Shown here one piece after another: positions 15,418 through 64,000 of a DNA stretch of 64,000 bases. Numbering within the stretch: the first letter of the stretch is position 1; each line of letters opens with the position of its first letter. Made by a program: the position numbers and the translations under genes. The notes beneath the pieces are model-generated. The model did no database searches and was not told the DNA's origin. It saw nothing but the letters and a program-made list of their open reading frames with translations. Source of the DNA: Muricea muricata (lineage: Eukaryota; Cnidaria; Anthozoa; Malacalcyonacea; Plexauridae); the NCBI GenBank assembly GCA_963855995.1, contig OY979723.1, positions 14,522,713 to 14,586,712 on the forward strand, written 5' to 3'.

Positions 15418-15420
15418 GCT

Positions 15421-15475
15421 CTAAAAATTGAATATACACCGACATCCCGTACGGTTGTAAAAATTGAATATACAC
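15421..15475 (+). repeat. Short direct repeat at the satellite A border
   Basis: TAAAAATTGAATATACAC occurs twice, 37 bp apart (15421-15438 and 15458-15475), directly after the last satellite monomer. It may be a junction scar or a coincidence of an AT-rich region. Confidence 0.6.
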
Positions 15476-15518
15476 AGACAATTATCATTCTGGTCTACTG
15501 AGTAAAATAAGTCACATA

Positions 15519-15640
15519 AAAGAACCAGTTAATTTTGACTTCAGGCTGAAGTGTTTCTTATATAACAGGTACTTAGGAAAAAATATACCCCTATATTAGG
15601 AAAAAATACAGGCTCACGTGGTTCTTAACTGGTTCTTATT
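15519..15640. repeat. Small inverted repeat (foldback)
   Basis: AGAACCAGTTAA near 15522 is matched by its complement TTAACTGGTTCT near 15625, with a repeated TAGGAAAAAATA in the loop. It could be a small MITE remnant. No coding sequence is seen between the satellite end and 15786. Confidence 0.45.
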
Positions 15641-15785
15641 TCCAGTCAGAAAACAATTCCTCCTGGTATAGAGTTGGAAACCTCATATTGTATAAAATGT
15701 GTTGAATACATTGTGAAGATGAATTATGTTGTGAATTGAGGGCTGTTTTGATAAAACATATGCATGCAGGATGTGAAAAACTTAC

Positions 15786-16140
15786 TTTGCATTTTGCGAG
15801 TCCTGATCAACCAATTGATGTATAGTGCATATAATAGCACCGTAGGTTGGTTCTGTGACACCCTGGCTCCCTTCTCCGGGTGGCAGCCTGTAAACAAGAT
15901 CCTTCATCGCGTGTTTGCCTGACAAAAGGAAGACGCAGAAGTGAAGCAAACGGACTCTCGCATAGCAAACTGCAAACCAGGTCTCATACCTATAACAACT
16001 TTATTCCTTGTGTCCAACGCCAGATTCCGAAGTGCTGTGGTGTCTGCCCGAATGACAGCATCGTCATCGACTCGGAGTAACTCGACTAAGATCGGTAGAC
16101 CCTTCTCTCGCCTTAGCGTTGAACATAATAACGCTGACCA
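15786..16140 (-). pseudogene. Delta/p120-catenin family gene fragment (two consecutive armadillo exons)
   Basis: Two minus-strand exons are visible. Exon a (16140-15990, 151 bp) reads [14 protein letters not shown], then [13 protein letters not shown], then [16 protein letters not shown]. It ends in a split Gly codon before a GTATGA donor. A 71-bp intron follows, ending in TTTTGTCAG. Exon b (15918-15786, 133 bp) reads [14 protein letters not shown], then GAIICTIHQLVDQDSQNAK, and stops at a GTAAGT donor. Frame and phase agree across the junction. The wording matches armadillo repeats of the p120/delta-catenin/ARVCF family, cytoplasmic partners of classical cadherin tails (family knowledge). 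No stop or frameshift lies in these exons. No upstream exon is recognised to 18475, and downstream the satellite begins after about 370 bp. The piece is therefore either a truncated copy or the edge of a gene with the satellite in its next intron. I call it a fragment; active status is undecided. Confidence 0.75.
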
Positions 16141-16928
16141 CTGGAAAATACGTGGAATTATTTGAAAAAATATTCTAGACACATATGCAAGGCTAAATCA
16201 ATGAAGGTTCAACTGTAAACTATGAGCGCGCAGGGATGTTAAGTAATTACTTATTTTCACCTCTAAACACGGAATTACTTCCTTGAAACAGCATCGAGAG
16301 CACAAAGGAAACTTACGAAGGCAAATTTACTTGCTAAAAGGGATCAGGGTTATACAAATAACTAATATTTATAGTAAAACATTTTTTAAAGAGGTGAAAG
16401 ATGGAATTTTGCAATCAACAAGTTAGATCGCCATTTTGTTTTGTGAGTTTACTACATGAAATTCCATCGCTCAATTGTAGTGCCACGTTCGTGGATACGC
16501 CATTTACTGTAGTGTGTGCGGAACGTGTGCGATAATAACATCTTGAGTGATTGAAAACAATGAAAGCTACTGCGCAATGGAAAGAAATATTTGCACGGTT
16601 CCATGCACGATAATCAAAACTGGAAACTTCTGTTTAAGCTATAAAATTAACCAGAGAAATAAATCTAACCAATAGAACCAGTTTGAAAGGGATAAGGAAA
16701 ACATCTCGAAATATTTCTACTGGTTATAGATCAGGCCCACTAGCACATTTCTTCAGTAAATTTTCTAGTTATTGTAATTACACTAACTATTCATTTGGTA
16801 AACCCCTCAATAAACAATGAACTGAACTATTGCTGTCGCATACAAGAACAACAGAATAAACACTAATGGTGTCACCTCGGAGCGATTACAGAATTCCCGG
16901 CCACTCTAAACAGTTTTTGGTTTTAGGG

Positions 16929-17520
16929 GATACGGGGATAAGCAGTCATTAAAATGACAGAACTATATGAGTAGTTTAATGGTTCAAACACTAAGAGGAG
17001 AATGTGTGACTGTTATACGACGATAAGCAATGATTGAATGACGTAAGTTTTGAAGTAGTTTAATATGTACTATAGCGAGCAGGTAGAGAGATTTATAAAC
17101 TGTGATTGTAAAAAGTATGCATTGTTATCTATGCATCATAGCTGCTCAGACAAATATTTAAAAAGCATTGGAAAGCATGTTTTCTTATTTATTCGGCATT
17201 TGCCATTTTAAAGGTTAGCAAAACTTGTTTAACTTAAAGTTGCTCAATGTTTTGAGCTCTGGCATTGTGACAGTGTCCCTAACCCTAAAACTCATGAAAA
17301 TACATGATATATTTATACGAGTAAATCACTGCATGCGTCTATATCATGACTTACATAATATTCACGAGTCCAATGTGATGAGCTTATAAAGAACGAAGCA
17401 AATACATGCATGTGAGCGTGTATTTTAAAAAATGAGCGAAAGTCATGAAATACATAATATAGTTATCTGATTAAAGTACTCGAATATTTACGTCATTTCA
17501 ATGACTGTGTATCCCGTATC
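16929..17520. mobile_element. Possible TIR element (imperfect 29-bp inverted repeats)
   Basis: GATACGGGGATAAGCAGTC and the bases after it at the left end match, with a few mismatches, the reverse complement of the right end, which finishes GTGTATCCCGTATC. Flanking target duplications are not clear and the interior has no convincing coding sequence. A chance or decayed foldback cannot be excluded. Confidence 0.35.
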
Positions 17521-17544
17521 AGTAAAATATTCATGACTGCGTAT

Positions 17545-17560
17545 CCCCCCCCCCCCCCCC
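17545..17560 (+). repeat. Poly-C homopolymer, 16 bases
   Basis: An uninterrupted run of C directly followed by GAAAAAAAC. It is prone to length error in assemblies. Confidence 0.9.
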
Positions 17561-18475
17561 GAAAAAAACAAACACCAAAAGTGGCCGGATATTCTATAAT
17601 CTAGCCGAAAGGATCAAGTGGAGCTGTTAACCAATGTCGCGTGACTGCAAACTCTCGTGCTCGTTTGACCTGGTCTGATACTTTAACATAATTTATAAGA
17701 AATGTGTTTTGAGGGGCTGCGAAGAATCGATAATTGAGGGGATCCATAGTTATATACGCATGTGTTCCCAAAGTGTAAAAACAATCGATTTGAAACAAAA
17801 TTAATGATGCAGCACGCGAATATTTTTCCTTCGCTAATCGATCTTCCGAAACTGACCCATCTGTTCTTTTCATTTTTCAATCATCTGTAACTTGCTGAAT
17901 ATCTGACTTCCATTTACACTCACGAATACCGTACAGACTATGCGTACGTTAAGAAAATTATCCCTCTCAGTTTTGATTTGCGACCGTCTCTGAATGGCAT
18001 TAAAACGATGAAACATGAACAATGAATTGTATCATTGTTTGAATTTATTAACTTTTTTCAAAATTATTGCTTTTATTTTATCACTTTTTCATGTTTTGAA
18101 CGAAAAACGAGACAATATGATTGGTAAATGATGTCTTTAAAAAAATTGAATCATGTAAGCAAGCTGTTGTGAAATTGTGATTAATGCTTCTTAAAATATC
18201 ACAGAGAAGCATTAAAAAGCTCACTTTTCAAATTTTGCTGTAAATCCCAGAATAAACCCTTAATTTAGAATAAGTTATTACCTGAAAGTTCACTGAATGT
18301 CACTCTCGCTCACTTGTTTTGCCCTAAAAAATAAAAAAAAATTGTGAAACTCAATCACCAATAACCTCAGGGACTGTTGATTAAAGAATGGAAATTAGGA
18401 CGTATATTCATGCAATTATGCTGTTTCTTACTAGCGTCAAACAATAATAAGCAACTGCAAGTAAACTTCTGAGAT

Positions 18476-19500
18476 ATGATAACAGACGCAACCCTGGACT
18501 CAAGTTATGAACATTTGGAACAACCTAATAAAGAAAGTGTGTACTCCATTGACAAGGACAATACTTCTACCTTGACGTCATATTTCGTTACGCTTTTGGT
18601 ATATTGCTTCATGTGCCTATCATTCAACAGTATATATACCACCGTGTTGGAGAATCAAAAGGGCTGGTAACTAATAAGACGGAACATCATAGTAATTGTG
18701 ACAACCATACTGCACACGATAATCCTGAACTTCAGAGGATAATGAAGGATACACAAAGTGAATCCTCACTTATCCTCCTAGCCACTATAGTTACTGCAAC
18801 TATCCAAACATTATTCATGACCCTCATGCTTGGGTCATGGTCAGATAACGTTGGACGTCGAACTGTTACAGCAATTGTGATATTTGGAAGCATTACGGAG
18901 AGTACACTTATATTGATTATAATATGTTTTAAACTGCCAATATTTTCTCTCATCCTATCGAGCTTTATTGGTGGTATGTGTGGTTATTTCCCCACAATAA
19001 TACTGTCAGTGTTTTCATATATAGCTGATGTAACCCTCCCTGATCAGCGTGCATTGCGACTTGGTATACTTGAAGCAGTTGCTTTCATAAGTGGAATGAT
19101 AAGTCACCTATCAAGTGGATGGTGGATTGAGAAAGCTGGTTATGTCGCACCATATTGGCTGATAACATCGTTACATTTTTGTGCATTTCTTTATACAATA
19201 TTTGTATTACCTGAGTCTCGTCAAATCAATGTCAAAAAATTTGGCGCAGGTCTATGTCAATTTGAACATATATGGTCAATTATTAGATTATTTCAAGAAC
19301 CAAGACAGGGCCAGCGATGGAAGTTAACTCATTTGACGTTTGCAACATCATGTATGATGTTATCATCAACTGGTTTTGGATGTCTGTTTGTCCTTTATGC
19401 TCTTGACGTACCCCTGTGTTTTAATTCATTATTTATTGGTTAATTCAGAGGAAGGGAATTATCGTTCAGCTGCGTTTTTTATTTACACCACTTTGCCTGA
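18476..19500 (+). pseudogene. SLC46-type MFS transporter, N-terminal half, frameshifted
   Basis: An open frame from ATG 18476 gives a cytosolic N-terminus (MITDATLDSSYEHLEQ) and the start of a membrane helix. It must then change frame near 18610 to continue as HVPIIQQYIYHRVGES, a segment typical of helix 1 in SLC46 proteins. The second frame is open to a TAA at 19441 and carries the MFS loop motif GSWSDNVGRR, then FSYIADVTLPDQRALRLG, then GWWIEKAGYVAPYW, with about six hydrophobic segments. A third frame just after the TAA resumes family-like wording (YRSAAFFIYTT) and then fades into repeat DNA. SLC46 members (proton-coupled folate transporter and relatives) move small solutes across plasma or lysosomal membranes (family knowledge). 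Two frame changes and a missing C-terminal half make this a broken copy; the absence of introns is noted. Family assignment is fairly secure, the exact member is not. Confidence 0.75.
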
Positions 19501-19860
19501 CCACCTGACCACGTTGGCTGCTACACTCGTCCAATGTGGTTTAAATTATTTACCAGTTTTTAACAGAATGGGCCACAAAAAATGGTTACACAATTTGAAC
19601 CACGTTGGAAGAATGTGGTAGCGAACATATTCCAGTGGTAAAGACAATGCATATGTGTATCAATCAGAATCTGTCACTGAGGCCGCGATCAACACCTGGC
19701 TTTGCCAAAAATCCTCTTGGCTTTGGTCACTTTAAAGAACTATATAGGCCAGAACGCTTGGACAACTTAAACCACCTTGCCAAAGCGTCATAACCAACGT
19801 AGCCCAGTGGTCAAGTACAAATGTCTCAACAAACGTGGCTAGGATCAATTCCTGCCTATA
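19500..19860 (+). repeat. Repeat DNA with a tRNA-like (SINE-type) head
   Basis: TAGCCCAGTGG at 19800-19810 fits the polymerase III A box, and GGATCAATTCC at 19842-19852 fits the B box with two changes, at normal tRNA spacing. The preceding 300 bases repeat related phrases (ACCACGTTGG, ACCACCTTGCC). A decayed tRNA-derived SINE is the best explanation; the cloverleaf is not intact. Confidence 0.45.
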
Positions 19861-20161
19861 ATTTCATTGTACGGTCATTGCCTGCAGTCAAAGAAGACGC
19901 AGTACCCGAAAATCGCAGAAAAGCCAGGCATGTGAGAAGCTAAGTACACACTACACTAAGTACAGTATGCATAAAAAACCCATTTACGTGACATAAAGTA
20001 TATTACTGCATGTATCAGTAACACGATACGATAGAAGCATCTCATTTACAACTGCGTTTTGTACTATGGTAGAATTTACAATCCTGTAGTGGACGAAAAC
20101 GAAAGAAAACAAGAAGCATTGAAGGACATGATTCAAGTCAATCTTCAATTGTCCAGCTTTA

Positions 20162-20826
20162 GACCCCGCTCACACGATACCGGCCGACAGAGTTTGAAAA
20201 CGGTATGAAATTCTTACATTTAGGGGCTGCGTTCACACGATGCCGGTATGAAATTGTGTGAAACCGTAATGCCAAACGTAAGAGTTTGAAAACGGTATAC
20301 GTACCGTAAAAGCTTGAAACCGTAGTGAAATTCAACCGTCAGACTACCGTGTGAACGCCTAACCGTTAGTGTTTCATTACGATTAATACAAAATAATGAA
20401 ATTAACAAAAGTTTTTGTTGGATATTATATTCTGTCTATTTTAACTGGTTTGTACAGCACATTGTCAATAAATTTAAGCTTGTTACAAAAACGTTGGGTA
20501 GAAATTGAAAAGGACGTCGTATTCTCACAGTTTTATTACTGGATACAAAAAAAAAACGAAAAGGAAAAAAAGAGAAGACAACGCCGATTCTGGTCGATGC
20601 CAGGACGAACTTCTTCTTGGTGGCAGAGTTTTAGAAATAACCTTGTTGTGGAAGAGCAATGGCGAGAGAATTTCCGACAATTCAACGACTCAAATCCGAC
20701 ATTGATCCGGTTTCGTGTGAACGCAACACCAAAACGCGATATCACTCTACCGGTATCGTGTGGACATTTGAAAACCTAATGATTTTTACCAGCAGAGTCA
20801 CATACCGGCATCGTGTGAACGGGGTC
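20162..20826 (+). mobile_element. PIF/Harbinger DNA transposon, internally deleted
   Basis: The left end GACCCCGCTCACACGATACC and the right end (reverse complement GACCCCGTTCACACGATGCC) form 22-bp terminal inverted repeats with two mismatches. They are flanked by a TTA duplication (20159-20161 and 20827-20829). A 3-bp TWA target site is the hallmark of PIF/Harbinger elements. A further copy of the terminal motif lies inside at about 20228-20246 and suggests nested or rearranged ends. The interior holds a transposase N-terminus (separate entry). The element sits just past the last recognised MCM2 exon. Confidence 0.8.
20396..20779 (+). pseudogene. Truncated Harbinger transposase (N-terminal part)
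   Basis: This 127-codon open frame starts at ATG 20396 and reads KKRRQRRFWSMPGRTSSWWQ, then VVEEQWRENFR. It matches the conserved N-terminal block of Harbinger-type (HARBI1-like) DDE nucleases, which have a basic RRFW.PGRT..WW motif and an ENFR motif. After ENFRQF the frame runs straight into the 3' terminal repeat region, so the whole DDE catalytic core is absent. A 20-residue hydrophobic segment (FVGYYILSILTGLYS) near the start is not usual for the family and may mean the true start lies further in. The element could only have moved with transposase from elsewhere. Confidence 0.7.
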
Positions 20827-21230
20827 TTAAACAGAGGAGAAACGAAACTAGCTGTTAACTACATGGCGCAAAATGTTTATCAGTTATCCAGTGCAACTTA
20901 CCTGAGTGTACGGATTTCTTCCATTAAGGGCAACTCGGCAATTCTGACATAAATGTCGTTTGTAGTCTGATCATATCTTTCGTACATTGACAACACAACC
21001 TCCTTCGCAGCCTCGTCAAAAATCTTCAACATTTCTGCTGGTGCTTCGGGTAAGAAATAGGCCAAAACTTGCAGAGGTTGTTCACACGCGAGAACATTGT
21101 AGTCAGTTACGAGAGTCTGAAGGTTTCCTGGAAGAAAAAAGATGTGGGCCTTTAAAATTTCGTACAATACATAGTACAACGGCCATATATAAAATACGTT
21201 TGATGATTCTAAGCATTAGCTATAATCCCT

Positions 21231-21720
21231 AAAGCCCCGTACGGACAAGCAAGTTGTCCTTGACAAGTTTTATTTGCTCGTGTGTACGTGAAAAAACTGA
21301 CAACTTTTCCTTGACAAGGAGCCTGGTTTAAAAGCTAGTCGTACCAGCTTTTCGCCAAGGAAACTTGCTCGTGTGTACGTGCAACAAGGAACACTTGACA
21401 AGGGAATTGTTTGTTTACGTACTTAAATCATGCGGCCTCGTAAAAGTTGTCAAGAAAAAATATTGTCAAATTACGCGTACACAGGAACAAATAAAGTCTG
21501 TCATGGAAAAATTGTTTGTCGTGCAGACGCGTAAGAGAACTCGTCAAGAAACTTGTCAATGTATTTTCTCGTGTGAACGCGAAAAAATGACAATTTTTCC
21601 TTGAGAAGGAGCCCGGTTTAAAGCTAGTCGTACCAGCTTTTCAGCAAGGAAACTTAATCGTGTGTGCGCGCAAAAAGGGAATTTTTGTGTACGTACTTAA
21701 TTCATGCGGCCTTTACATTC
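21231..21720 (+). repeat. Partly duplicated non-autonomous element in MCM2 intron 4
   Basis: A block around 21285-21420 recurs at about 21560-21710. Both hold GACAA(C/T)TTTTCCTTGA, then CTAGTCGTACCAGCTTTTC, GCAAGGAAACTT and GTACGTACTTAA. The ends (CCCCGTACGGACAAGC at the left) resemble MITE termini, but a matching right end was not located. Confidence 0.55.
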
Positions 21721-21810
21721 AAGATAATGTTCAAAATTTACAATGACGTTATTGACATTAAGGGACTACACTGAATTGCAAAGTATCATATACAGAATCG
21801 ACCTCACCAC

Positions 21811-21880
21811 CTATCTCTCAGCGGGTTAAGCACTGGGCTAGCATTTCAAAGGTTATAATAGTTCTCATTCCTCGTGAGCC
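21811..21880 (+). repeat. tRNA-like remnant
   Basis: CTCTCAGCGGGTTAAGCACT at 21815-21834 resembles a tRNA D-arm/A box and AGTTCTCATTCC near 21860-21871 resembles a B box. The stems do not pair well, so this is at most a decayed tRNA-derived SINE. Confidence 0.35.
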
Positions 21881-22272
21881 AGGCACAATTTCTGATTAAC
21901 AAGTGTACCGTATCGTAACTTGTATCCCGGTATCAACAGCCATACCTTCACACATCAATTTGATTGTGTCTCTGTACACACTCTTGCCATGATGATCCAC
22001 AAATGTCTTTACAAATAGTTTGAATCTGTTTTTGATTTCATTTCTCGGCGCCTGCAGACACACCCACTCTCGTATGGTGTGTCCCTTCATATCCTACAAT
22101 TCTCTACACTTTCTACCATGTCATTGCCTAGGTCAATGTCACCCTGGGCATGTCATCTTCATCAGTTTCATCTGAGGGAAAATATATAAATAGTTTCTAA
22201 CTTGTTTAAGTTTAGAACACAAGAAAATGGACTGGTGATATCACATGCCTTTTGATGTATGATTATTTAGCG

Positions 22273-22331
22273 ATTAGTCGTCCAAGGCGAGGTAATTACA
22301 AGCCTATATTCACCTCGCCTGAGGCAACTAA
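22273..22331. repeat. Hairpin: inverted repeat around CACCTCGCC
   Basis: ATTAGTCGTCCAAGGCGAGG and its near complement CACCTCGCCTGAGGCAACTA flank a short loop inside MCM2 intron 3. I recall similar hairpins as common MITEs in cnidarian genomes. The rest of this 560-bp intron is AT-rich with no exon. Confidence 0.6.
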
Positions 22332-23179
22332 TTGTTTTAGTATAAATTTCCCTTTTGAAAAATTAACTTCAAATTCATAACTGTATACAAAAGCAAAAAG
22401 CAATAGTCACTGGTCAGTGACTATCACTTCCGAGAAAGCAAATCTTGACCAATCAGAATGCAGGAAAATCAATAGTCACCTGGAAATTTATACTGAACAG
22501 AAATAGATCACATCAAATCCCAACAAGCACAACCTAAAAATGTGCTTCTAAAGGAGCTTCTAAATGCAATTTGAACCCATACGAAAAAGTATTTCAAGTC
22601 AATGCTCTGTCAAAAGTCAGCACTTTTCTCCCACAGGGAAAATTGTCAGGTCGGCTATGCAATACTGGCTTAATGTGGTGTGGCTGTCTGCCATTTTGCC
22701 AAAAAATAAATGAACAAACTGTATAGTACCATAACGAAGTCCTCGTCTCAGTCTTCCAGATGTTAAAGCCTCCTGTCTGTCTCTCCTTCCCGTCACTTTC
22801 TCAGCTTCTTGTCGAGCCCCAATGTCCATCTGATCATATTCTTCATCATCAAGTGCTGTTAGGTCACACATCAAGTCGAGGGATTGCACGATAGTCACTA
22901 GAAAGAGAAAAAAAAATTGTTTTTTAAGTTCATAAACAATTTGTAAAATGAACTTGACAAATAAACATACTCTTCCATATTGTCTCCCATCAAATCAATT
23001 CCATCGTCGGCCTCGTCTTCCACACCACTTTAATCATTTCCCAAAATAGCATCTGACTAATCCTCAAGTGGAGCCAAATGCCGAGCAGGACTGGTCGTCA
23101 ACGCATCTGTTCGATCATAACGTACATCATCTTGGGGGTCTCGGCTTGGACTGGTTGCGATAGTGCTTGACGAATCCTC

Positions 23180-25105
23180 CTTAAATGAAAAGGCAACATT
23201 ATAACACAAGGAAAATATACCAACACAAAAAAAAGATGGCTGACATATTTATACAGATGAGAATAAGCAGTCAAGAAGGGCATAGTTAATAGAGCTATAA
23301 GGTTTGGAAACTCATTACAACTACAATACAAGTCATTATCCATGTTTTTGTTCTGATTTATGCAGAAATAAGGTCCTTCATCATCACATGCATATTGTAA
23401 TTAGACCTAACGAACCAATAACAATGTTTTAGAAAAGTTAGCCACCTGCAACTTGAACAATAGGGTAATTCAAGAATTGCTATTGGTAGATTTGGTAAAA
23501 ACACACTACACATGTGACGATGAAAAACCATATTTTGCATAAACGTTGACCAACATAGATAATGAGTTACATAGTTATTCTAATAAGTTTTACTCAATTA
23601 ACTACGAGAAGGGGATGGAAGTAGTCATTAGGGCAATATTAAAAATCCTCTCAATATGTTTGAAGCTGGAAACTGCACAGTGGCATCACTAATATGCGCT
23701 CGGACGGGGCACACTGGGTGATCTCCAGCCACAAAAGCCTTAAGGGAGGGCCCTGGTATTGTCATTTTTCAAGACAAAAGCTGACATTGCTGACGTATAG
23801 TGCCTCACATTCTTCAAGCAAACACAAGTGCCAAAAAATGGGAGAACGACAAACAAACAATGATTTTGGCAACAGGAGATGTATTTTGGTAAGTTCAATT
23901 TCTCACTTTACTGACTAATGAATATCAAAACAATTTTGACATAATTCTGTGACATCTTCCCCTCCAAAAGTCCAGGGAAATGAAATTTCACCATTTCTAG
24001 TTTGTAGTAGGGCAGGGGGGTTCACAAATTTTGAACCAGGGGCCTGTGGCCATGATGGTAAAGCACTGAAACTGCAATACACATACAGGTAAAGATTGAG
24101 TCCAAGGTGACAATTAATGGATGCATAATCACCATCGCACACTGTAATATTTCTAGGACATACAAGATGTTAATCAGGAAAAATTGCCTGATATGTAAAG
24201 AAGACATCAGCAAAACGTAATTACTGTAGGTACATATTTGCCAATTCAACATCTCTTAAGAGGAGAATTTTCAATGCAAGTTGCAAGAAATTTTGCAGCA
24301 CGTGACAACATCTTGATATTATTGAACAGACTTGATCCACATTAAGTTATCTGTAGTGGCACGGCTTGCAACAGCTTACTGACAACAGACTTGTTGCAAG
24401 TTGATTGTCAAAACTTGTTATCCACAGGCTTGCTGCAAGTTGTTTCAACAAGTTGGAAGAAGTCTGCAGATGGCAAGTTGCAACAAGCTTGTTTTGAAGA
24501 AATCAACAAGTTTGTTACAACTTGTCGACATTTTTTAACAAGGAGGTAAAACTAACAACCTGCAAGAATGCTGTGAAAAAATAAGTACTCATAATTGTGA
24601 TGCATTCTGTAACTGAAATTGTGTATTTATCATGATTTTCAGCATTCAACAGGTATTGAGTCCATACCTGTTAAAGGCTTGATGGTCTAATAACTAAAAG
24701 CTCACAATAAATATTTTCAGTCACAGCTGAATGCGGAGAATAGTTATTGCTTTCTTTAAGGAATTCATAATTATAGTATTTTGAGGGATTTAAATACACA
24801 AGCCATATGTCAAACATTGGCTACACAACTTTACAATTGTCTAATGTTTTGATGAACTTGACCGTCATTTTGAACCAAAAACAAAGTTAAATGAGGCATA
24901 TAATTTGCTGACAAATAACAACAAGTACTCTTGATATAATATTGAAGAATACAACACATGGAATACAATTGACCTACAACATGTCAAAAGCGGCAGTGAA
25001 ATATCGTATTGTGAAAGGCAAAACTCTTCAAAATTCATCACTAAACAACCATAGCTACTTCCAACATGTTTATTTACTTCAAATATAGTAAAATACCAAA
25101 CTTAC
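23180..25105. other. MCM2 pseudogene intron 1, non-coding
   Basis: No exon is recognised. The stretch holds a degenerate CAAGTTG/CAACTTG repeat (separate entry) and a weak tRNA-like segment near 24049-24090 (TGGCCATGATGGTAAAGCAC followed by GATTGAGTCC). Small open frames in it match no family I know. Confidence 0.55.
24280..24545. repeat. Degenerate CAAGTTG / CAACTTG repeat
   Basis: Short words such as CTTGTTGCAAGTTG, CAACAAGCTTGTT and ACAACTTGTCG recur on both strands for about 260 bases. The words are partly self-complementary, so the stretch can form many small hairpins. Similar repeats are familiar from anthozoan DNA (from memory). Confidence 0.6.
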
Positions 25106-25111
25106 AGCCAT

Positions 25112-25440
25112 TATTTTGCGTTTTTCCTCGCGTAGAAATATTGCCAATCGTCCCTTGCTCACTTCCCGTGCACATGCCGCTGCGAGCTGTTCACGTGATC
25201 AAAACTTCTCGGGCTTTTCCACTGGCCTCCAAATTAAATCAACTCACTTGCTCGATTACTTGGATCCCGAACTGGATCCATTCAGCCACTAAATTGACTA
25301 GAACTCGCCCTAGAATCACGGAATATCATAGATCACGTCCGAAAATCTGAGTTTTCAAAATCCTAAAACGGAAAAACAAGGTGTCCGATTATAAACACGC
25401 AATGCACACGCGCAGATCAATTAGAATATAATTACTGACG
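25112..25440 (-). promoter_or_regulatory. 5' flank of the MCM2 pseudogene (promoter remnant)
   Basis: This is the sequence upstream of the presumed MCM2 start. It has more CpG and GC than its surroundings (CCTCGCG, TGCGAGCTG, CACGTGATC). No single factor site is convincing. Whether it still drives transcription cannot be told. Confidence 0.3.
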
Positions 25441-25485
25441 CTCATAATAACCTATTGTTCTCACTCTGCATTATATGACAGAATC

Positions 25486-26373
25486 ATTACACCATTTGCC
25501 CCTCATTAAGCGAGAAAAGAATGTCATGAAGATCATTTTGCAGCTTCACAAATACAAATCGGAATTTCAATGACACATTGTGTGCAAGTCAATAAGCGTG
25601 AAGGGATATTCAATAGCAACAATTGACTCAAGTATGCATAAAAATTGAAATCCATTAATCAAAGATGGAAATTCAATAAGAATACAAAGAACATTCAAAA
25701 ACACAAAAGAAGTTCTTGTTTGAATACAAGAAACGCTCAATTAGATAAAAATGTATGTTCAATAAAACCTAGGTTTACTTTATAGACACGCAATCATATT
25801 AACCCCAAAAACAAAAAAATGGAACGTTCATTATCAAGTTTTATCAGTCTAAGTTTGTACGTGGCGTTGCCATAACTCTGCTGTGCTTGCCACCCATCCT
25901 GTCTGGAGCCTTGCTTGCTTTCTACAGTGGTACACTGTACAAGATTTCACTTCGTTTCGACACCTTTGTAACATTTCACGTTATTCAAAAACTTTTAGAA
26001 CAATTCAGCAAAGCCAAATATTTGCCGGAATAAAGAATATTTTTCAACAGCCCTTTTCTTTTCTTTGAGCATGTTGGTGTTCACATGACAACTTCGTTGA
26101 ACATACATTTTTATCTAATTGAGCGTTTCTTGTATTCAAACAAAAACTTCTTTTGTGTTTTTGAATGTTCTTTGTATTCTTATTGAATTTCCATGTTTGA
26201 TTAATGGCTTTCAATTTTCATGCATACTTGCGTCAATTGTTGCTATTGAATATCCCTTCACGCTTATTGACTTGCACACAATTTGTTATTGAAATTCCGA
26301 TTTGTACACGTGAAGTTGTAAAATGATCTTAATGACATTCTTTTTTAGCTTAATGAGGGGCAAATGGTGTAAT
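25486..26373. mobile_element. Foldback element with about 280-bp terminal inverted repeats
   Basis: The left arm begins ATTACACCATTTGCCCCTCA and runs to about 25763; the right arm runs from about 26088 and ends in its complement, GGGGCAAATGGTGTAAT. The arms match over nearly their full length with scattered changes and small indels. The 320-bp centre has no recognised coding sequence. No clear target duplication was found. This is a non-autonomous foldback or long-TIR MITE between the MCM2 and AMDHD1 fragments. Confidence 0.8.
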
Positions 26374-26956
26374 AGGGTTAGATTCTTAGGAAAAACGGGA
26401 GCGGTCTTTTTTGATTGTAGGGAAATTACCAGGGGTAAATAATATACGCGCTAAATGCCACACTGCAATATGAAAATTATTGCAGCCAGCTCCGTAAAGG
26501 CGTTTTATCTTATATATTGAAGAGTGAAAATAAGCGCCTCAAAAACACAGTTTCACACAATACAATAAGCACTACAAATCTTTAATAGCTAATAACTAAT
26601 TGGATTTATTATACACGCTACGTTGGTAAATACAAAATAGCAGTCATATTCCATAGACGGTAAACTTTAAAATCAGATTTGTACGAAACAACTATCTTGG
26701 TGGAATCTGTCTGAATAACAATTAGCTGATCAGAGCCAGACTTTACTTTATTAAAATTTTCTTTAACGTCTGTCTTGGTTTTACATTCTGCACTCGTTGC
26801 AACCTCACGCGAAACACTTCTGAACGATCTTTTTGAACGATCTTCGAAACACTTTCTGGCGATCTTTTTGCACTCTTCATCCATGTTAGCCTCACAAAAA
26901 CTACCTTGCAATAGTTGACTTGCTTTTCTCTTTAGTGAAGACGAGGTGCATTATAG
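26374..26956. other. Intergenic stretch upstream of the AMDHD1 fragment
   Basis: Apart from the unassigned minus-strand frame at 26618-26911, nothing recognisable is seen. The AMDHD1 start codon should lie in or near this stretch but no convincing first exon was found. Confidence 0.5.
26618..26911 (-). CDS. Unassigned small open frame (hypothetical)
   Basis: A 97-codon frame on the minus strand begins MQGSFCEANMDEECKKIARK and ends AILYLPT. It is rich in Lys, Arg, Glu and Ser in its first half, without a signal peptide or membrane segment. I recognise no family. It could be a first exon of something lost, a small orphan protein, or chance. Its overlap with the expected 5' region of AMDHD1 on the other strand argues for caution. 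Confidence 0.2.
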   Translation of the reverse strand: MQGSFCEANMDEECKKIARKCFEDRSKRSFRSVSREVATSAECKTKTDVKENFNKVKSGSDQLIVIQTDSTKIVVSYKSDFKVYRLWNMTAILYLPT

Positions 26957-28351
26957 GAACTGCCATGCGAGAAAGTGCTTAAAGGAACTGCCATGAATAA
27001 TGTGCGCATATTGACTGGGCCAGTTAGCATGGTAGTAAACTCTGAGGGGAACATTGCATAATTGCTGAAGATTCTATAGCCGTTTCTCAGAAATTTGAAG
27101 AGAAAGAATTCGCAACGATCTTAGAAGCAACGGACTGTTGTGCAGGGCCGAAACTAAAGCGTTAATTGGGGGGGTGCATATTCATATATTCGCGTTCTGC
27201 CCGACGAATTTCTTTTGAAATCAACGGTAATGACAACTGATTCCAAAAGAAATTCGTCGGGCAGAACGTGAATATATGAATATACACCCCCCCAATTAAC
27301 GCTTTAGTTTCGGCCCTGCTGTTGTGTTATGCCAGGTAAGGATACGTCATATAGAACAGGGCTAGAGTAAAGATTATGGTACTCCGATAGTACTTGAAAC
27401 TGATAACAATTATAGCAAAATAACTGTACATCATTTCTGGCAAAGCAATTTGTATTATTCTTAAAGGTTGCATTATTCTCTGGATTTTTCAGGTTTGGTT
27501 GATGCTCACACTCACCCTGTTTTTGCAGGGGATAGAGTATATGAATTTGCAATGAAGGTAAGTCTACTCCAACCCCAAATTTCTAACCATGAGAAACACA
27601 ACTGTTACGATAGATAGTAATGCTATTTCACGATGGCAGCGTTATCTCAGTCATTAAATTAGACCAAAACTGTGCTGTATGGTGAAAAGGTGTGCCCATT
27701 TGCCACTGATGACCATATGGCTGGGTTTCAGCCACATGATGGTATTATAATGCTTGGTGCTTAACTTCAAATAGAAACACCATTATTGGATCAAGTTAAG
27801 TATTTATCATTGGTATTGACCTTGTGTTTGGTAGCACATATGTACCATTGAAAGGCTTTTGCTCACTTCCATAAGGCATAAAGCTGCATGCCACCAAGCA
27901 TTGCCCTTGAGTGAACCCCCCTTCACACTGCACCATTAATTCATCCCATCAGCAATGAAATTACCGCATGTGCTTGAATCAATATTGTAAACATTTATAA
28001 TAACTTCCACTAGTTCTATTAATGCCACTGGTAATGCATCTGGCGTGTGTGACATTTAGTATGACCATGAATGAAGCACTTGTGGCCAGTACAATCAACG
28101 CTGCTGCGTCAATAAAGAGATCTCATTCTCATGGATCATTGGAGATTGGCAAATTTGCTGATATGCTGATTCTGGACTGCCCGAGGTAAAATATGTCAAA
28201 GTAAGGGCAATGTTTGAAACATGCCTTCTTTAATCAATATTTTTTTATGTTTTCTAGATGGAAACATTTAATTTACCAGTTTGGTGGACATGATCATGTG
28301 ATAAAACATGTGATTAAGAAGGGACAACTTGTACATTCTCATAAAGACTAA
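26957..28351 (+). pseudogene. AMDHD1: Imidazolonepropionase (AMDHD1/HutI), broken copy lacking its core
   Basis: Imidazolonepropionase opens the imidazolone ring in histidine breakdown. Exon a (about 26957-27335) reads EKVLKGTAMNNVRIL, VSMVVNSEGNIA, then after a 1-base frameshift near 27059 FEEKEFATILEATD. It is interrupted by a hAT-like MITE (27143-27318) and finishes CCVMPG. Exon b (27493-27557) reads LVDAHTHPVFAGDRVYEF with the HxH metal-binding pair of amidohydrolases. Exon c (28014-28185) reads MPLVMHLACV, MNEALVASTINAA and SHSHGSLEIGKFADMLIL. Exon d (28258-28351) reads WKHLIYQFGGHDHVIKHVIK and ends KD before TAA. Donors and acceptors (GTAAGG, GTAAGT, GTAAAA; TTTCAG, TTTCTAG) fit. About 215 residues that should lie between exons b and c, including further catalytic residues, are absent from that 456-bp gap. 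With a frameshift, an insertion and a missing core this is a pseudogene. Confidence 0.88.
27143..27318. mobile_element. hAT-like MITE inserted in an AMDHD1 exon
   Basis: The element starts CAGGGCCGAAACTAAAGCG and ends with the complement, CGCTTTAGTTTCGGCCCTG. It is almost a perfect palindrome over 176 bp. An exact 8-bp duplication, CTGTTGTG, flanks it (27135-27142 and 27319-27326). An 8-bp target site and CAGGG termini are typical of the hAT superfamily. Removing the element plus one duplication rejoins the reading frame ATD-C-C-VMPG across the site, which shows the insertion hit coding sequence. Confidence 0.88.
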
Positions 28352-29143
28352 TAGATTATTTATTACTGTTTTTCATCATAGAATTATAATCAAAGACAAG
28401 CACACATGAAGTTTGTAAGTTTTAACTTTAATTTTCCATACAAATTAACCCCCCCCCTCCCTTATTACCTACAGTATATACTAGATTAACCCACTGCATA
28501 AACCCCATTAAAGATGTACATAGAAAGTAGAAAACATGTACGTATGTCATTGCCTGCATTATAATCGAACACTGTGTTTTGCATTTAAGGAATAGAAGTG
28601 ATTGGAACAGTACTACTGGTATTCAGACTTTAAAGTTTAAGGTGACTCAATAATCTAAATCATGATGCTACATTGCACAATAGGTACTTTGCTCCATGGA
28701 AAATTGCCATAGAATCTTTTATATTGTACATGCAAAGCTAATCAGTTCATTGCATAGCTCTACTGGTTGTCTTCATAAATAGAAAAGTTTTTTCTCCTAC
28801 AATAATATATCCAGAGATAATGTTGTCATGGATAAGGATAACTCCACAGTTTATGCAAATTAAATTATATATAATTTGATTTGAACAGGGAAAATGATTT
28901 CTACATTTAGGCAAACTTTAAAGAAACTTTTTTTTGGAATACAGAGAACAGTGTTATAGTGCTGTGAAATGAACCAATTATGAAGCTACAGCATTTACTA
29001 TAAAACATTTCTAAGCGGAGAAAAAATTTTGCTTATCTATAACAGAAATTACGGAAAGCAATATTATAATGGACTTAGAGAAAGTTAGTTTTTAACCCGT
29101 TTAGAAAATGGTATGTTGGATTCAGTCCAGATATATCACGTGA
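28352..29143. other. Intergenic AT-rich sequence, nothing recognised
   Basis: The region from the AMDHD1 stop to the zinc-finger fragment holds a C-rich run near 28450 (CCCCCCCCTCCC) and no exon, repeat or RNA gene that I can support. A poly(A) signal for AMDHD1 is not obvious. Confidence 0.5.
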
Positions 29144-29524
29144 TCAGTAATGGTCATTCACTTTATCACAAGGTTGAGCGAGTAAGATCTTAGGTGTCAC
29201 GCTCTGGCCATGGATACAGACATGTATGTTGAGTGCACCAGAATTATTAAAACTACGAGGACAGTAGCAGCACTTGAAGGGCCTCTCATTCATGTGATCC
29301 TCCATATGCTTGCCCAGCTCTGTTCAGATGGTACACACACAATCACAGTACCTGCATGTGCAGTTCTTGCTCGATTTTGAACAGTTATGCAACAGAATTG
29401 TTTCACGGTTGTTAAAACATTTGGCACACTTGGAACAATATGCAGACCCCTCAGATGGCCCCTCATTGTTGGGCAGTTTATACCACTGGTGTACTAACTT
29501 TATCCACTTATAGCTTATTATAAC
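29144..29524 (-). pseudogene. C2H2 zinc-finger protein fragment with in-frame stop
   Basis: One minus-strand frame runs from 29524 to a TGA at 29144-29146 and is broken by a TGA at 29324-29326. It reads YKWIKLVHQWYKLPNN, then a C2HC-like finger (YCSKCAKCFNNRETILLHNC). A finger with exact C-x2-C-x12-H-x3-H spacing follows (CRYCDCVCTI, stop, TELGKHMEDH), then the linker NERPFK and a further full finger (CCYCPRSFNNSGALNIHVCIH minus its first residue). Such fingers bind DNA in transcription factors. The stop lies between the Cys and His pairs of the middle finger, so it would abolish it. No splice site can explain the stop. It is probably another gene-fragment pseudogene; the parent gene is not identified. 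Confidence 0.7.
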
Positions 29525-29582
29525 TTATATAAAATTTTGGATATACTAATCACCTTTGCACTGCCACACTGAATGACATTAG

Positions 29583-29730
29583 ACAATTATTGAATGAGGT
29601 CGAGCAGGATATGAGGAATTATTGAGGTGGAGGTTTGTATTATCCACCAAAGCCAAAGGCTGAGGTAGATAACACAAACCAAGGCCTTAATAATTCGTCT
29701 TATCCAGCAAGAACCGAATTCAATAATTGT
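29583..29730. mobile_element. Foldback MITE with ACAATTATTGAAT ends
   Basis: ACAATTATTGAATGAGGTCG at the left and its near complement ending GAATTCAATAATTGT at the right form arms of about 45 bp around a central hairpin (GGTTTGTATTATCCACC and GGTAGATAACACAAACC). Similar palindromes are common in cnidarian DNA (from memory). Confidence 0.65.
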
Positions 29731-30123
29731 TTTATTATTTTTTGAAAATATTTTAAACTCAGTTTAAATGCTTGCTTTGTAAGTAAGAAGACACTAAAAG
29801 TCGCATAAATTATAGCGTGACGTCATATCTTGCTTCAACATGCGACGAAATGACTCATAATGTTGTATATTTATTTTCAACCCCAAATTTGGGCAACTAC
29901 CAAGCAGATATGACGATTTCACCTTTAGCTCTTAACCAATCAAAACTCCTAAAATATTTTCAATAAATAATAATATTTCTTACTGCTATTACCATCAACA
30001 CCACTGTAAAACACCCACTATCAATTACTGTCAATCAAGACCATTATCTCAAATCAGAAAGCATATATATCTATTAAGTTATAGAATTCAAGTTCTAATT
30101 CTGCAGTTAATTAATTTTCTTAC
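29731..30123. other. AT-rich sequence downstream of the LCMT1 fragment
   Basis: The next LCMT1 exons would be expected here on the minus strand but none is recognisable. Nothing else is seen. Confidence 0.5.
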
Positions 30124-30747
30124 CTTATAACCATACATTTTCTGCTAGTGACAGCTCCAAAATCAACTTCATAAAACATCTTTGGAGAGTGACAATCTTC
30201 CTCAAAACATCAAATAGTAATCAACCAATTAATAGATTAAAGAGCTGAGGACATATTTTGAGTGAGGCCTGGCTGTGGAAACTAATACCTTCAGTTGCCA
30301 ATAACGAGTATCAAAGCCAGATCCAAGGTTTATGACTTGACAATTGTTGTCGGTGAACTCAAGAAACTGCAGTGAGATAGTTTCCATTCCTTTCACATGA
30401 GAATAATAACCTGAGGAAAATTAAGATGACAAATCTGAATCACACATCAACAAACTGCTTCATGGAATATACAAATTAGAACTATATAGTTCTTAGAACT
30501 AAGTTCAAGATAGAAAATCAATAAGACGAATTGCTTGTCCTCTTGGTGCCTGTGCAATCTATCTTGTTTCAAAATATTGAAATATTTCTATCGAGAACAG
30601 ACAATTCTATCAGCCAATGATATGATGTATAGTTAGGAATCAAATTACTAACAAACCTCTGTTAATCTCGGGTGCCTTTCTTTCAACAGTCTTAACAAAA
30701 TGTTGGATGTACGGTAATCTTGTCAATATCCCAACTGAACTGAAAAT

Positions 30748-31283
30748 CTGAAAATTATATAGAAAATCTAACCAAGTGGACAATGGAGATCTTGACTCAT
30801 TCTGGCAACATGAGGTAGACATTCTCAAAGTCTGTTTTCCTTACAGTTTCCACAAGCAGGGACACAGCTACAGGCTGATAAAAAAAATTCTCATAAAGAC
30901 TAATCACACTCAATGCCCCAAAAAACCCCTGAAATATATATAATTATAAAGTTTTTTTAATATAGAGATTGCTTGGGTACTTATGTTGTAGAATGAATGA
31001 AAAAATCTGAAATTTAAATGCTTACAACCCAGGGGGTGTGTATTCAAACACATTAAAAATGGCTTGTGCACAACATTACTTTTAAGCATTAAAGTTTTGC
31101 ACACAAGCCATATTTAACTTCCTGCAAGACTCCAGGTTTTGAAGTTTTAAATTTCTTAATTTTTCTGTTTATTCTACATTATAAGCACACAAACACTCTA
31201 TTTCAATAAAAAAATCGAGGCATTTTGCAAAGAAGAGAGCAATTCCAGATTTGTTCAGGCTTTTTCATTCACCCAGTTGAATG
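30748..31283. other. LCMT1 intron 1, distal part
   Basis: AT-rich sequence without recognised exons. A short inverted match joins ACACAAGCCATATTTAA near 31100 and GGCTTGTGCACAACATTAC near 31060. Nothing else is supported. Confidence 0.45.
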
Positions 31284-31425
31284 TTATTGGCAGAGGGGTG
31301 CATATTCATACCATGTTCTGCCTAAACAAATGCCTTTTGAAATCCGCTGTGATTAGAGTTGACTTCAAAAGACATTCGTGAGCTGGGATGCAAGTGTACA
31401 CCCCTCCCCAATTAACTCTGTCCTG
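31284..31425. mobile_element. Diverged relative of the AMDHD1-inserted MITE
   Basis: AGGGGTGCATATTCATACC, GTTCTGCC, CTTTTGAAATC and the complementary ACTTCAAAAGACATTCGTGA, GTACACCCCTCCCCAATTAA follow the same order as in the element at 27143-27318. The ends have decayed and no target duplication is left. Confidence 0.65.
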
Positions 31426-31626
31426 TCCCCAATACAATTATGCCCGTGTTGCCTGAACAGTTGCCGGAAACTTGTGCCAAGTCTATAATGTAACATACAT
31501 CACATTATGTTGTGAAATAATTTGAAACCTTGCACAAATAACTGAATAAGTCTTCTTTGCAAAAATAGTTTTGCAACTAAAAACAAATTTTAATAAGTTT
31601 GCGAAGTTTCATCTATGTTCTATGGG

Positions 31627-31778
31627 CAGTAGCGAAGCCAGCCTGTCAATTTGGTCATGCTATGCAAATTTAAATCATTATCATTAATCATTTCTTTAGG
31701 AATTAATTCCTTATACGGTTTATAAACACTGAAAAATTTGCATTTGCATGACCAAATGTCAGGCTGGCTTCACCACTG
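31627..31778. mobile_element. Second hAT-like MITE with 8-bp target duplication
   Basis: CAGTAGCGAAGCCAGCCTGT at the left and the complement of CAGGCTGGCTTCACCACTG at the right form imperfect terminal repeats of about 35 bp. The flanks TCTATGGG (31619-31626) and TCTATGGA (31779-31786) match in seven of eight bases, as expected for an old hAT insertion. Confidence 0.7.
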
Positions 31779-31818
31779 TCTATGGACTATGGGTATCTTG
31801 GCTTAGTTTCAGACTTCA

Positions 31819-33559
31819 GTAGCGTAATGCGGGGCAAAACGAGACACTTAAGGATTTCACTTGCTATAAAAAAGCATGAAAGCAAAATCAAGTACTTTTT
31901 TCATAATGAATATGTTAAATAGACTCATGACTAGCAATACAGAGAAGAAAAACTCTTTTGGAGACACGGCTGTCGTGTTATGAGAACAAAAACAACAAGT
32001 CATTATTGTCTCATTTTGCCCCAGCATGTGGGACAAAATGAGACAGGCAAATAAAATGCTACAAAAATGTTCAAAAATAAAAAAATTTTTAATCAAATGA
32101 TTTAACTAAATGTAACAATACATTAACTATCAGTTTCTTAATATATAAACAAATCACAGGTTGCATTTCAGATGACTACCATGGATTGACAGTTTTCCTG
32201 TTACCATAATGTTCAAACAAGGAGCATTTATCTCACTCCTTGCCTGCAGCAGACTTGGACCAGAACACATCACACACATGACATTTGGTATATCTTGCAC
32301 ATGCTCAGTGTCAGATCTTAGGAACATTTTGCAGGCTAGGGTTGGATGACAAAATGTTGATGAAACATCAGAAACCAGTCATAGTCTATTCACTTGTTGG
32401 AGAACAGAGGCCAGCAGGGTCTGAAGCATGGTCGATCAAAGCAGACTTGTTTTTTCTTTCAAGTTCATCACTGGTGGGACAAACTTAACACCACTGACAC
32501 ATGTCACTGAATACAAATAGAATAATATTATGGTTGTTCGACCATGTCTACCACTGGTCGCTAACAAGAGACATGCCGCTTTATAACATCTTCGAGACTA
32601 TAACTGTCACTGACATATGTACATTTATTAAACTATTTTCACAACATTTGAGTATTTATAAGCTACTCACAGACAGCTTATTTAACACAGTTGCACCAGT
32701 ATTATAATACAGTGGACAGGCGTTTTATTCACACTATATACATCAGTCACAAGTGGTTTTCGAAATGACAGATCAGGGTTGTCCTTTGGGTTGATCGGCA
32801 AAAAATCATGACCAATGAGTTTGCAGCCAAATTTAAAATTGTTGTTAATATTGCTTATTTTGCAGTAAAGTCATATACTAATGACCATTGGTGCAACATT
32901 TCTACTGTAGGCAAAATTTCACACAACTTGAATTGGATGATGTGTAACTGGTATCACACCAGAATTTGGTGACCTATTTACATGTTACACTGGCAATAAA
33001 TCCATAAAGAATTGGTGACTTTGCTTTATTGAGACAACATTAATATTGTGCTGTTGTGCAGAATCATTTAGTAAACACAACAACAGATAACGACAAACGA
33101 AAAGGTTCACATAAGTATACAAACTTAAAAGGCTGTAGGCTTGTCTCATTTTGCCCCAACTGCCTGAGTGAATTAAAAGTCGTGCAATGCGAAAAATTAC
33201 AGTCAACATTAACAAAATATACATCTGACATGAAAGGGCACATGCTAATGCCTCTTAAATAAATAAGGTTTTATTCGATCGTTACGACCTGCGAGAGAAA
33301 AGAAATACTATTTAAAATATAAAATAATAATGTACCTTAATTTAACCAGACAGGATCCAATGTCACTCACAAAATTCAGGATAATTCTCGTCAGAAATTA
33401 GCCTTTGATTTGTAATAACTTTCAAAACAAGCCAAGAAGCATCACGAATGAGCCCGCAATTCCTTATTAGGCAAATAGCGGTAGATCACTCGCTATATTC
33501 ATTTAAGCCAAAATGTCTCATTTAGCCCCACTGTCTCGTTTTGCCCCGCATTACGCTAC
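31819..33559. mobile_element. 1.7-kb TIR transposon with perfect 27-bp ends
   Basis: GTAGCGTAATGCGGGGCAAA and the seven bases after it (31819-31845) are perfectly complementary to 33533-33559. If the outer GTA is read as flank, a TA duplication is possible (Tc1/mariner-like), but this is ambiguous. Internal copies of the motif TGTCTCATTTTGCCCC occur near 32008, 33143 and 33513, some in inverted form. No intact transposase is found. On the minus strand near 32232-32300 a short frame reads CARYTKCHVCDVFWSKSAAG, with paired CxxC that might be a zinc-binding tail of a transposase. It lies in LCMT1 intron 1. Confidence 0.75.
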
Positions 33560-33854
33560 CTTGACATGTCTCAAAACCACTAAACTTAATCCAATTGACT
33601 AAATAAGTCATCTCTCGTAATAAAGTGGGGCTTGAGCACTGAACACATGTTTTACAAAATACATTTCAAGTAAAACCCAAACCGAAGAACCAGTAACACA
33701 TGTTTCTGTGTTACCATTATTAAATATGGCATAATATTCTCAAAATTTGTCAACTAATTTTGGATACTACCATCTAACAAAATAGTTGAGGATACCTTTT
33801 ACAAATAGATGCATCGTCATTCGTTGCCATAACCGCATCATCGTGCGACTGCAT

Positions 33855-34418
33855 AATAATTTAGTGCAATTTTTTAACTCAAAAGTTCAACACATAATTT
33901 CCAAAATTCTCAAATTAAATATTTTACGATTTCGCTAATTATTCCACGACACGCATCACGAAATATATCAGCATAATCATCCAGTTGATCTGACCGTGAA
34001 TAAACGGCCTGGAACTAGCCACCATTTTGCAATTGCTGTTTTTAATAACTTATAACCTTTATTTTCCTTCATAAAACTTGTTGAAACTTTGTTATTATGT
34101 TCAGCAAAGAATATAAAATGGATTTCTATTTGACAACTAGTGCCAGTACTTTTCGGTGTTTTCAGATCACCTAGATAAGACGAATTCTCGTTCATAATTA
34201 AAAACTTTCGCCCCAAAATTTAAAACAAAAGGAACAGTCTAGAAAACACATATTGTATTTCAAATCCCTTTTTTAATACTTAAAAATGGATACTATTATA
34301 GCAGTTAACTTTATTTATATTATTTGAGGGTTATATAATATACCATCTTTTTTACAAAATGATGTAACATACATAATCCAGGTGGATCTAGGAGTAACAC
34401 TTAGCACTTTTAGTGCTA
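33855..34418. other. Upstream flank of the LCMT1 fragment up to satellite B
   Basis: Contains the presumed LCMT1 promoter side. A 79-codon minus-strand frame at 33977-34216 (MGRKFLIMNENSSYLGDLKT) is not recognised. The stretch just before the satellite carries GTGGATCTAGGAGTAACACT and no clear insertion-site signature. Confidence 0.4.
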
Positions 34419-37400: not shown

Positions 37401-38112
37401 TCTAGAGGTGCTTAAAAAAATTTTTTTGCATTAATATTATTGTCAATCAACCCCAAAAATAACCCTAACACTAACCCTGACCTTAATTATAAAGAAAAAA
37501 ACTCAAAAAAAAAAGTATAAATAAGACGTCGCCGGGATTCGAACCCCAAACTGCGGCATGGAAGACATTTACCTTGACCACTACGACACAGCACAACAAT
37601 CAACAAACCGTGTTTGAAAACGGTATTTAACATTGTCGCTTAAAAAACAGAGCATAACCATGGTGAAATGGACAGAGTATTGTTATAAAAGATGGCTTTG
37701 GACATTTGGCGCCCTGGCGGAATTGGACGTTGTTGTCGCCAACATTAACATCCAATTGACGGCCTTCGCCTAATATCCACCATCCCTGGCCCGAATTCGA
37801 ACTGTTAGGGGAGGGTAGAAGCGGCCCCCAGACCATGAGTGCTGAAACCCTGGAATTCCAGATTCGAATTCGACCATCGATAGTATAGAATCACCGTTTG
37901 TATATATGTACGTTAGCCTCTGCTGCTTGCAAAGATTGTGGTGCATTAACACCGCGGAAACGTGACGTACCATCGCGTCACGCTTTTTGCAATACCTGAA
38001 TTTAAGAGTCTAGAGGTGCTTAAAAAAATTTTTTTGCATTAATATTATTGTCAATCAACCCCAAAAATAACCCTAACACTAACCCTGACCTTAATTATAA
38101 AGAAAAAAACTC

Positions 38113-63712: not shown

Positions 63713-63744
63713 ATATCAAGTCTCTTTCTGTCATGTACTTGATG

Positions 63745-63996: not shown

Positions 63997-64000
63997 TTGC

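Follow-up and report, generated by a model that had tools for sequence, protein, structure and literature searches.

We analysed a 64,000-nucleotide stretch of the Muricea muricata genome (contig C8:14522713-14586712, here called the window), which lies about 51 kb off the end of the 14.64-Mb contig C8, and searched the assembly to which it belongs (one assembly, 453 Mb, 74 contigs). A first-pass annotation, made from the letters of the DNA, had described a 19-kb zone of broken genes between two satellites. Both arrays are real, one built of 181-bp units and the other, on the telomeric side, of 622-bp units, and the zone between them is a composite of catenin, SLC46, MCM2-AMDHD1-PRDM and LCMT1 blocks (Table 1). 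Pieces of genes located in other subtelomeres were joined in it, as genomic DNA with introns, beside the 622-bp satellite. Multiplication of the composite came after the break in its MCM2 part, and copies almost identical to it are now found near at least 19 contig ends.

The annotation had counted at least six conserved gene fragments, and searches against solved structures and Pfam support homology for all six. Joined exons match catenin delta-1 (two exons, E = 4.6e-17), MCM2 (two exons, E = 1e-41), LCMT1 (two exons, E = 5.5e-18) and imidazolonepropionase/AMDHD1 (three exons, E = 4.7e-11), and the SLC46 piece matches the proton-coupled folate transporter at E = 9e-33. The weakest match in the window is a C2H2 finger (E = 7.8e-5; 23.3 bits, under the Pfam cut-off of 25.2), whose source locus scores 35.0 bits, above that cut-off. 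Because this source locus also encodes a PR/SET domain, the fragment stands as a C2H2 piece and its description as a zinc-finger gene can be refined to a PRDM gene. The Pfam search covered 20 selected frames from the zone, and further weak fragments may have escaped.

The frames that we read have GT-AG borders in catenin, MCM2, AMDHD1 and LCMT1, the four fragments said to retain introns, and for the last three of these the introns of the source loci align as well. The pieces thus arrived as DNA, as proposed. A processed pseudogene or retrocopy was considered for these four genes and is ruled out by the retained GT-AG introns; SLC46 was read in one exon and has no bearing on this question. As the annotation held, MCM2 and LCMT1 keep their 5' parts, corresponding to about human residues 1-298 and 23-109, respectively. 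The first LCMT1 exon, which matches at E = 0.3 only, was placed by collinearity with the source locus, and LCMT1, its first intron interrupted by a 1.7-kb transposon, accordingly extends to 33842, a correction to the earlier coordinates. Decay is equally plain: stops, frameshifts or deletions occur in MCM2, LCMT1, PRDM and SLC46. In MCM2, comparison with the source shows that exon 2 contains two in-frame stops, that exon 3 has lost 2 nt, and that exon 4 carries two deletions, of 40 nt and 1 nt; the AMDHD1 remnant lacks middle exons amounting to about 1.5 kb. In themselves the gene pieces most likely have no function.

Table 1. Features of the window (positions counted from its first nucleotide).
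Positions	Strand	Feature	Basis
1..15417	+	181-bp satellite array, meets the duplicon at 15417	Tandem Repeats Finder (TRF): 85 copies, 96% matches
15418..34430	.	Whole subtelomeric duplicon, a composite of catenin, SLC46, MCM2-AMDHD1-PRDM and LCMT1 blocks	Genome searches and source loci
15425..15465	-	Third catenin exon remnant, cut by the satellite junction, with a local ~30-bp duplication	Uninterrupted in 4/4 sampled copies outside the 14-copy clade
15786..16140	-	Two open delta-catenin exons (~15990-16140, 15786-15918), short GT-AG intron	Homology, frames read
16634..19442	+	SLC46 block; coding 18480-19442, truncated at 19442, 31-nt deletion near the N-terminus	Homology
19857..29485	.	Block collinear with C8:377.3-387.2 kb, with indels and insertions	Alignment to source
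20902..25111	-	MCM2 5' part: exons 25106-25111, 22971-23179, 22730-22897, 21946-22171, 20902-21127	Homology and source alignment
25486..26373	.	Element with 277-nt inverted arms, 95% complementary	Not in source locus
26967..28351	+	AMDHD1 remnant: part of exon 1 (to 27141), 27493-27557, last exons ~28013-28185 and 28258-28351 with stop codon	Homology and source alignment
27142..27319	.	Palindromic hAT-like miniature inverted-repeat transposable element (MITE) in AMDHD1 exon 1; 8-bp target-site duplication CTGTTGTG	Repeat search
29170..29480	-	C2H2 part of PRDM gene, stop codon 29324-29326 within a finger	Source locus open there
29530..34415	.	LCMT1 block collinear with C3:60.143-60.147 Mb and C9:351-355 kb	Alignment
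30289..33842	-	LCMT1 5' part: exons 33792-33842, 30657-30747 (stop and frameshift), 30289-30410 (open)	Homology and source alignment
31819..33559	.	DNA transposon in LCMT1 intron 1; 28-nt perfect terminal inverted repeat, TA target duplication	Empty site in C3 and C9
~34431..63580	.	622-bp satellite array, telomeric side; some units 708 bp or with altered spacing	Repeat analysis

Open, longer source loci exist for five of the six genes, at three places (C8, C3 and C13), so the donors are several. These loci were called from open exons and not from expression, and the completeness of the MCM2 and SLC46 loci is not proven. The annotation had allowed that no intact paralog might exist elsewhere; this is not what we found. 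MCM2, AMDHD1 and PRDM derive from one collinear block at C8:365-391 kb, and the six fragments, all of them real, therefore do not represent six separate arrivals, three of them having come together. Window positions 19857-29485 align collinearly with this source at 79-94% per aligned piece. A query with a C-terminal part of human MCM2 places the C-terminal exons at C8:365817-373551 (36 of 36 candidates scored); its weaker matches elsewhere are probably other MCM genes. We read C8:365.5-391.5 kb except 375500-376499 (the exons for about residues 299-412) and found MCM2 exons free of the window's lesions, AMDHD1 head to head with them and, beyond these, a PRDM gene encoding both PR/SET and C2H2 domains. 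MCM2 and AMDHD1 appear to stand a few hundred bases apart at C8:382.7-383.5 kb, an arrangement that would amount to a shared two-way promoter, of which the window retains the MCM2 side. Third in the block, at C8:386.5-390 kb, is the gene that joins a PR/SET domain to C2H2 fingers, as PRDM genes do; we take its PR domain to resemble PRDM9/7, and if that likeness is true, a recombination-hotspot gene family would sit in a subtelomere.

For LCMT1, the stop-free exons at C3:60140988-60146573 are collinear with positions 29530-33995 of the window (about residues 110-164 of the probe are unmatched there). A decayed relative at C9:347-355 kb carries a different stop from that of the window, and the two therefore decayed separately. 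The closest longer SLC46 copy, at C13:12790258-12791124, is the source or a near relative; its open frame is 446 aa, the last part of which reads through a TA-repeat, so that the gene end lies beyond what was seen. A second SLC46 frame of 393 aa occurs at C9:302646. The source loci are themselves about 0.37-0.39 Mb (C8), 0.52 Mb (C3) and 0.21 Mb (C13) from contig ends.

A 2-kb MCM2 probe (2001 bases) finds, with the window counted, no fewer than 26 full-length places of 98-100% identity, plus partial ones; the best 40 of 2193 candidates were scored, and the counts are a lower bound. These places occupy 13 contigs (C2-C8, C10-C13, C15 and C16) and 19 contig ends, none of the 26 being more than 370 kb from a contig end. 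On C5, C6, C8, C12, C13 and C16 both ends bear copies, and inverted copy pairs are present at 6 of the 19 ends. A 3551-base AMDHD1-LCMT1 probe returns largely the same places, 14 of them (window included) given as 100% among the best 40 of 2331 candidates scored, with some copies split or shortened, and an SLC46 search recovers 26 duplicon places (38/38 scored). By BLAST, the window is 97.9-100% identical to the copies; likeness of this degree on so many chromosomes points to recent exchange between ends that do not match. Segmental duplications are defined, in the study of human subtelomeres by Ambrosini et al. (2007, PMC2323237), as stretches of at least 1 kb at more than 90% identity in several places, and the zone is one of these. 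It is also subtelomeric, with copies on non-homologous chromosomes close to telomeres, and a patchwork, with pieces from source loci on C8, C3 and C13. We inspected the right end of C8, where at least 6 kb of TTAGGG repeats form a telomere array, and the left end of C7, where the contig begins inside the 622-bp satellite and the edge of a duplicon copy follows about 12 kb in. Where the annotation had left the choice between a pericentromeric and a subtelomeric duplication, the TTAGGG end and the position of all 26 places thus uphold the subtelomeric alternative and disfavour the pericentromeric one.

Separately, a second MCM2 family occurs at seven places (C8:6478000, C8:14363447, C9:206861, C9:14208940, C14:184008, C15:12289751 and C16:290739), with 86-87% identity over exon 5; six are near ends and one is mid-chromosome. 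The latter, at C8:6.478 Mb, covers about residues 226-650, with no other MCM2 exons within the 16 kb read.

Junctions were read in 18 short pieces of sampled copies. The right-hand join to the 622-bp satellite is the same in 8/8 sampled other copies, and the left-hand join to the 181-bp satellite in 6/10. In the other four the catenin exon continues, and in C16, the one read further, another catenin exon comes after it; the satellite join therefore cut a catenin exon, and a duplication of about 30 bp marks the break. The 181-bp join was found in all six sampled members of a 14-copy clade described below (window not counted) and in none of the four copies sampled outside it. Point probes place the 181-bp array beside the plus-strand (+) copies of C8, C13 and C16. 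Seventeen probes between the inverted copies of these contigs were wholly 181-bp satellite in 4 cases, partly so in 1, partly 622-bp satellite in 1 and neither in 11, so the space between copies is not one pure array.

Lesions common to the copies order these events. The exon-2 stops and exon-3 deletion of MCM2 are present in all seven other copies read there. Its exon-4 deletions are common to 25 of 26 other copies, these seven among them, the 26th being without the stretch. MCM2 was therefore broken once and then multiplied. Over BLAST-aligned columns, non-coding distance to the source is 0.091 for the MCM2 block, 0.085 for LCMT1 against C3 and 0.040 for SLC46 against C13, and SLC46, with its lower value, seems to have arrived later or to have exchanged sequence with its source more recently. 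MAFFT over a 5-kb MCM2 stretch gave 0.120-0.123 to the source; we used 0.091 because alignment noise probably inflates the MAFFT value. Distances for the copies L011, L012 and L034 are inflated, part of each locus being not homologous, and their BLAST identities are 98.7-99.3%.

We built a tree of 26 copies and the source, with L012 left out, and assigned orientation toward the telomere from strand and nearest contig end; 14 of the 26 copies face outward and 12 inward. Orientation changes 4 times on the tree, against a shuffled mean of 8.8 (1 of 1000 shuffles as low), whereas chromosome changes 20 times against a shuffled mean of 20.0 (657 of 1000 as low). Outward-facing copies make up 12 of the 14 members of one clade (support 100/99) and 2 of the 12 others (Fisher p = 0.0011), and the close relatives of the satellite-joined version are mostly copies with the 622-bp side toward the telomere. 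Similarity thus tracks orientation, yet inverted pairs occur. One copy on C16 and one on C5 are identical over 3.2 kb. Clustering by orientation and not by chromosome is the pattern expected from same-orientation exchange between non-homologous ends. It is strong evidence for exchange and weaker evidence that orientation is the cause.

The reading that we favour, to which we give a probability of roughly 0.9, is that of a subtelomeric segmental duplicon, homogenised through exchange among chromosome ends that are not homologous. Its pieces would have been joined near telomeres by end-joining or template-switch repair, and ectopic crossover, gene conversion or break-induced replication between such non-homologous ends would have spread the copies and kept them alike. 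One version broke inside the catenin exon, became joined to the 181-bp satellite and spread in turn. Pairing would be effective mainly between like-oriented copies, since inverted ones, on exchange, would yield dicentric or acentric products. Several observations weigh against this account. Orientation is confounded with end distance, inward copies tending to lie deeper, and position could explain the clustering instead; two inward copies fall within the 14-copy clade and two outward ones outside it; and resolution within the tree is weak, with 13 of the 23 inner branches open and 6 starred. The source loci located cover five of the six genes, that of the catenin piece not being among them, and the second-family MCM2 middle piece at C8:6.478 Mb lies mid-chromosome, which shows that such copies can also be internal. 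Finally, both the count of copies and the correctness of these ends depend on the assembly itself. A bolder version, which we consider rather unlikely, is that the 181-bp array, the duplicon and the 622-bp array act together as a spreading chromosome-end unit that moves between non-homologous ends by orientation-limited recombination and drags the fused gene pieces along. Yeast Y' elements are comparable in behaviour to such a unit. If this were true, subtelomeric housekeeping genes such as MCM2 and LCMT1 would be repeatedly copied and scrapped.

Other origins were weighed against the same evidence. Units of 181 bp have the usual size of a centromeric satellite, the array runs for at least 15.4 kb in the window, and single probes at least 30 kb from the block are still in it on C8, C13 and C16; the block could on these grounds sit at the centromeres of telocentric chromosomes and represent a pericentromeric duplication. 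We judge this improbable, as copies lie at both ends of the contigs listed above, the window's array is only about 0.1 Mb from the TTAGGG telomere, and the 181-bp junction was seen in members of the 14-copy clade only, being absent from all four copies sampled outside it. It is less probable still that a mobile element of the Helitron or Pack-MULE type captured the gene pieces as DNA and multiplied them. Such an element would account for many near-identical, dispersed copies with intron-bearing pieces, and there are inverted-repeat elements within the zone, but the zone consists of collinear blocks, one with three genes, from three loci; its outer borders are satellite junctions common to 8/8 and 6/10 sampled copies; and the internal elements are ordinary insertions with target duplications of their own. 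A repeat search of 15418-34500 found no inverted pair linking the two borders; no dedicated search for Helitron ends was made. The labels hAT-like and TA-target in Table 1 follow the signatures of such elements, together with the target duplications seen here.

Near-identical repeats beside satellites are the hardest sequences to assemble, and the C7 contig stops inside the 622-bp satellite, so haplotypes or misjoins might have turned a single true copy into many, or split up a real gene cluster. We hold such an artefact to be very unlikely: the copies have differences of their own, some on well-supported branches, they come with two kinds of left flank, in two orientations and at varied distances from the ends, and open source loci for five of the six genes lie elsewhere. 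The specific case of a real cluster broken by the assembly is ruled out by those loci together with the lesions common to the copies read. There is also little chance that part of the block, such as the SLC46 fragment, is still expressed and useful. Its frame of about 296 aa is stop-free in 26/26 copies and its dN/dS to the C13 relative is 0.28, but copies that diverge by about 1% can keep a frame open without selection, a dN/dS measured against a working relative is for the most part a property of that relative, and the piece has a 31-nt deletion with a frameshift near its start and is without the later transmembrane part.

The flanking satellite has features of its own. Some 622-bp units contain internal duplications of 84 bp, and positions 34431-64000 hold 52 CCCTAA and 44 TTAGGG words, against about 9 and 4 expected from base composition. 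The array is followed by a degenerate CCCTAAA-type array at 63583-63708 and, at 63740-64000, by a short inverted repeat around AGGTGCTCTGACGGATCTGAAATAGCCCT that encloses AACCCTAACCC, possibly a small DNA element near telomere-like sequence. A word resembling a tRNA B-box, GGGTTCGAATCC, has 37 exact matches on the minus strand of the 622-bp satellite (34462-62726), where 0 are expected, and may come from a tRNA-related short interspersed element (SINE). No tRNA was found by ARAGORN (bacterial code, whole window) or by Rfam at E up to 1 (34400-36600), and Rfam at the gathering score gave 0 matches over 15000-40000. The observed/expected ratio of CpG is 0.40 and 0.32 in two 2-kb bins of the gene-fragment zone (28001-32000) and about 1.04-1.11 in the 622-bp satellite (36001-62000), as if the gene pieces had retained a gene-body methylation mark that the satellite is without. 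No publication on the pairing of a 181-bp with a 622-bp satellite turned up in a search by unit length only.

The duplicon is of the same kind as the subtelomeres of human, schistosome and bean, in another genome. Human subtelomeres (PMC2323237) are built as duplicon mosaics in which orientation toward the telomere is usually kept and TTAGGG-like islands lie inside, a structure attributed to translocation of chromosome tips. They share with the present case the telomere-near patchwork, high identity between non-homologous ends and telomere-like sequence at duplicon borders. Here, by contrast, the block in copies of the window's type is bounded by two satellite families, 6 of the 19 ends have inverted pairs, and the copies read bear the same broken MCM2 piece. 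The subtelomeres of another invertebrate, Schistosoma mansoni, are described in PMC10900676 as recombining extensively between chromosomes and contributing strongly to segmental duplications; the emphasis there is on expanded gene families, whereas here we find fragments, with MCM2 broken before amplification. Those of common bean (PMC6102362) likewise hold gene-derived duplicates in a subtelomeric satellite (khipu) with interchromosomal exchange between ends, for which both homologous and end-joining repair were inferred. There the genes are clusters of plant resistance genes; here a composite of unrelated gene pieces has formed.

The Muricea muricata duplicon is characterised by a double satellite frame, by scrap of housekeeping genes that was already broken when the spread began, and by a shared junction from which one wave of spread can be recognised. 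For annotation it carries a warning, in that matches to MCM2, LCMT1, AMDHD1, SLC46, PRDM and catenin in such genomes may be counted dozens of times. For the biology of animal chromosome ends it provides an ordered series of events, from capture through gene break, amplification and fusion to a second satellite to a second spread, and its near-identical copies are numerous enough for exchange between non-homologous ends to be measured and for the effects of orientation and of chromosome to be told apart.

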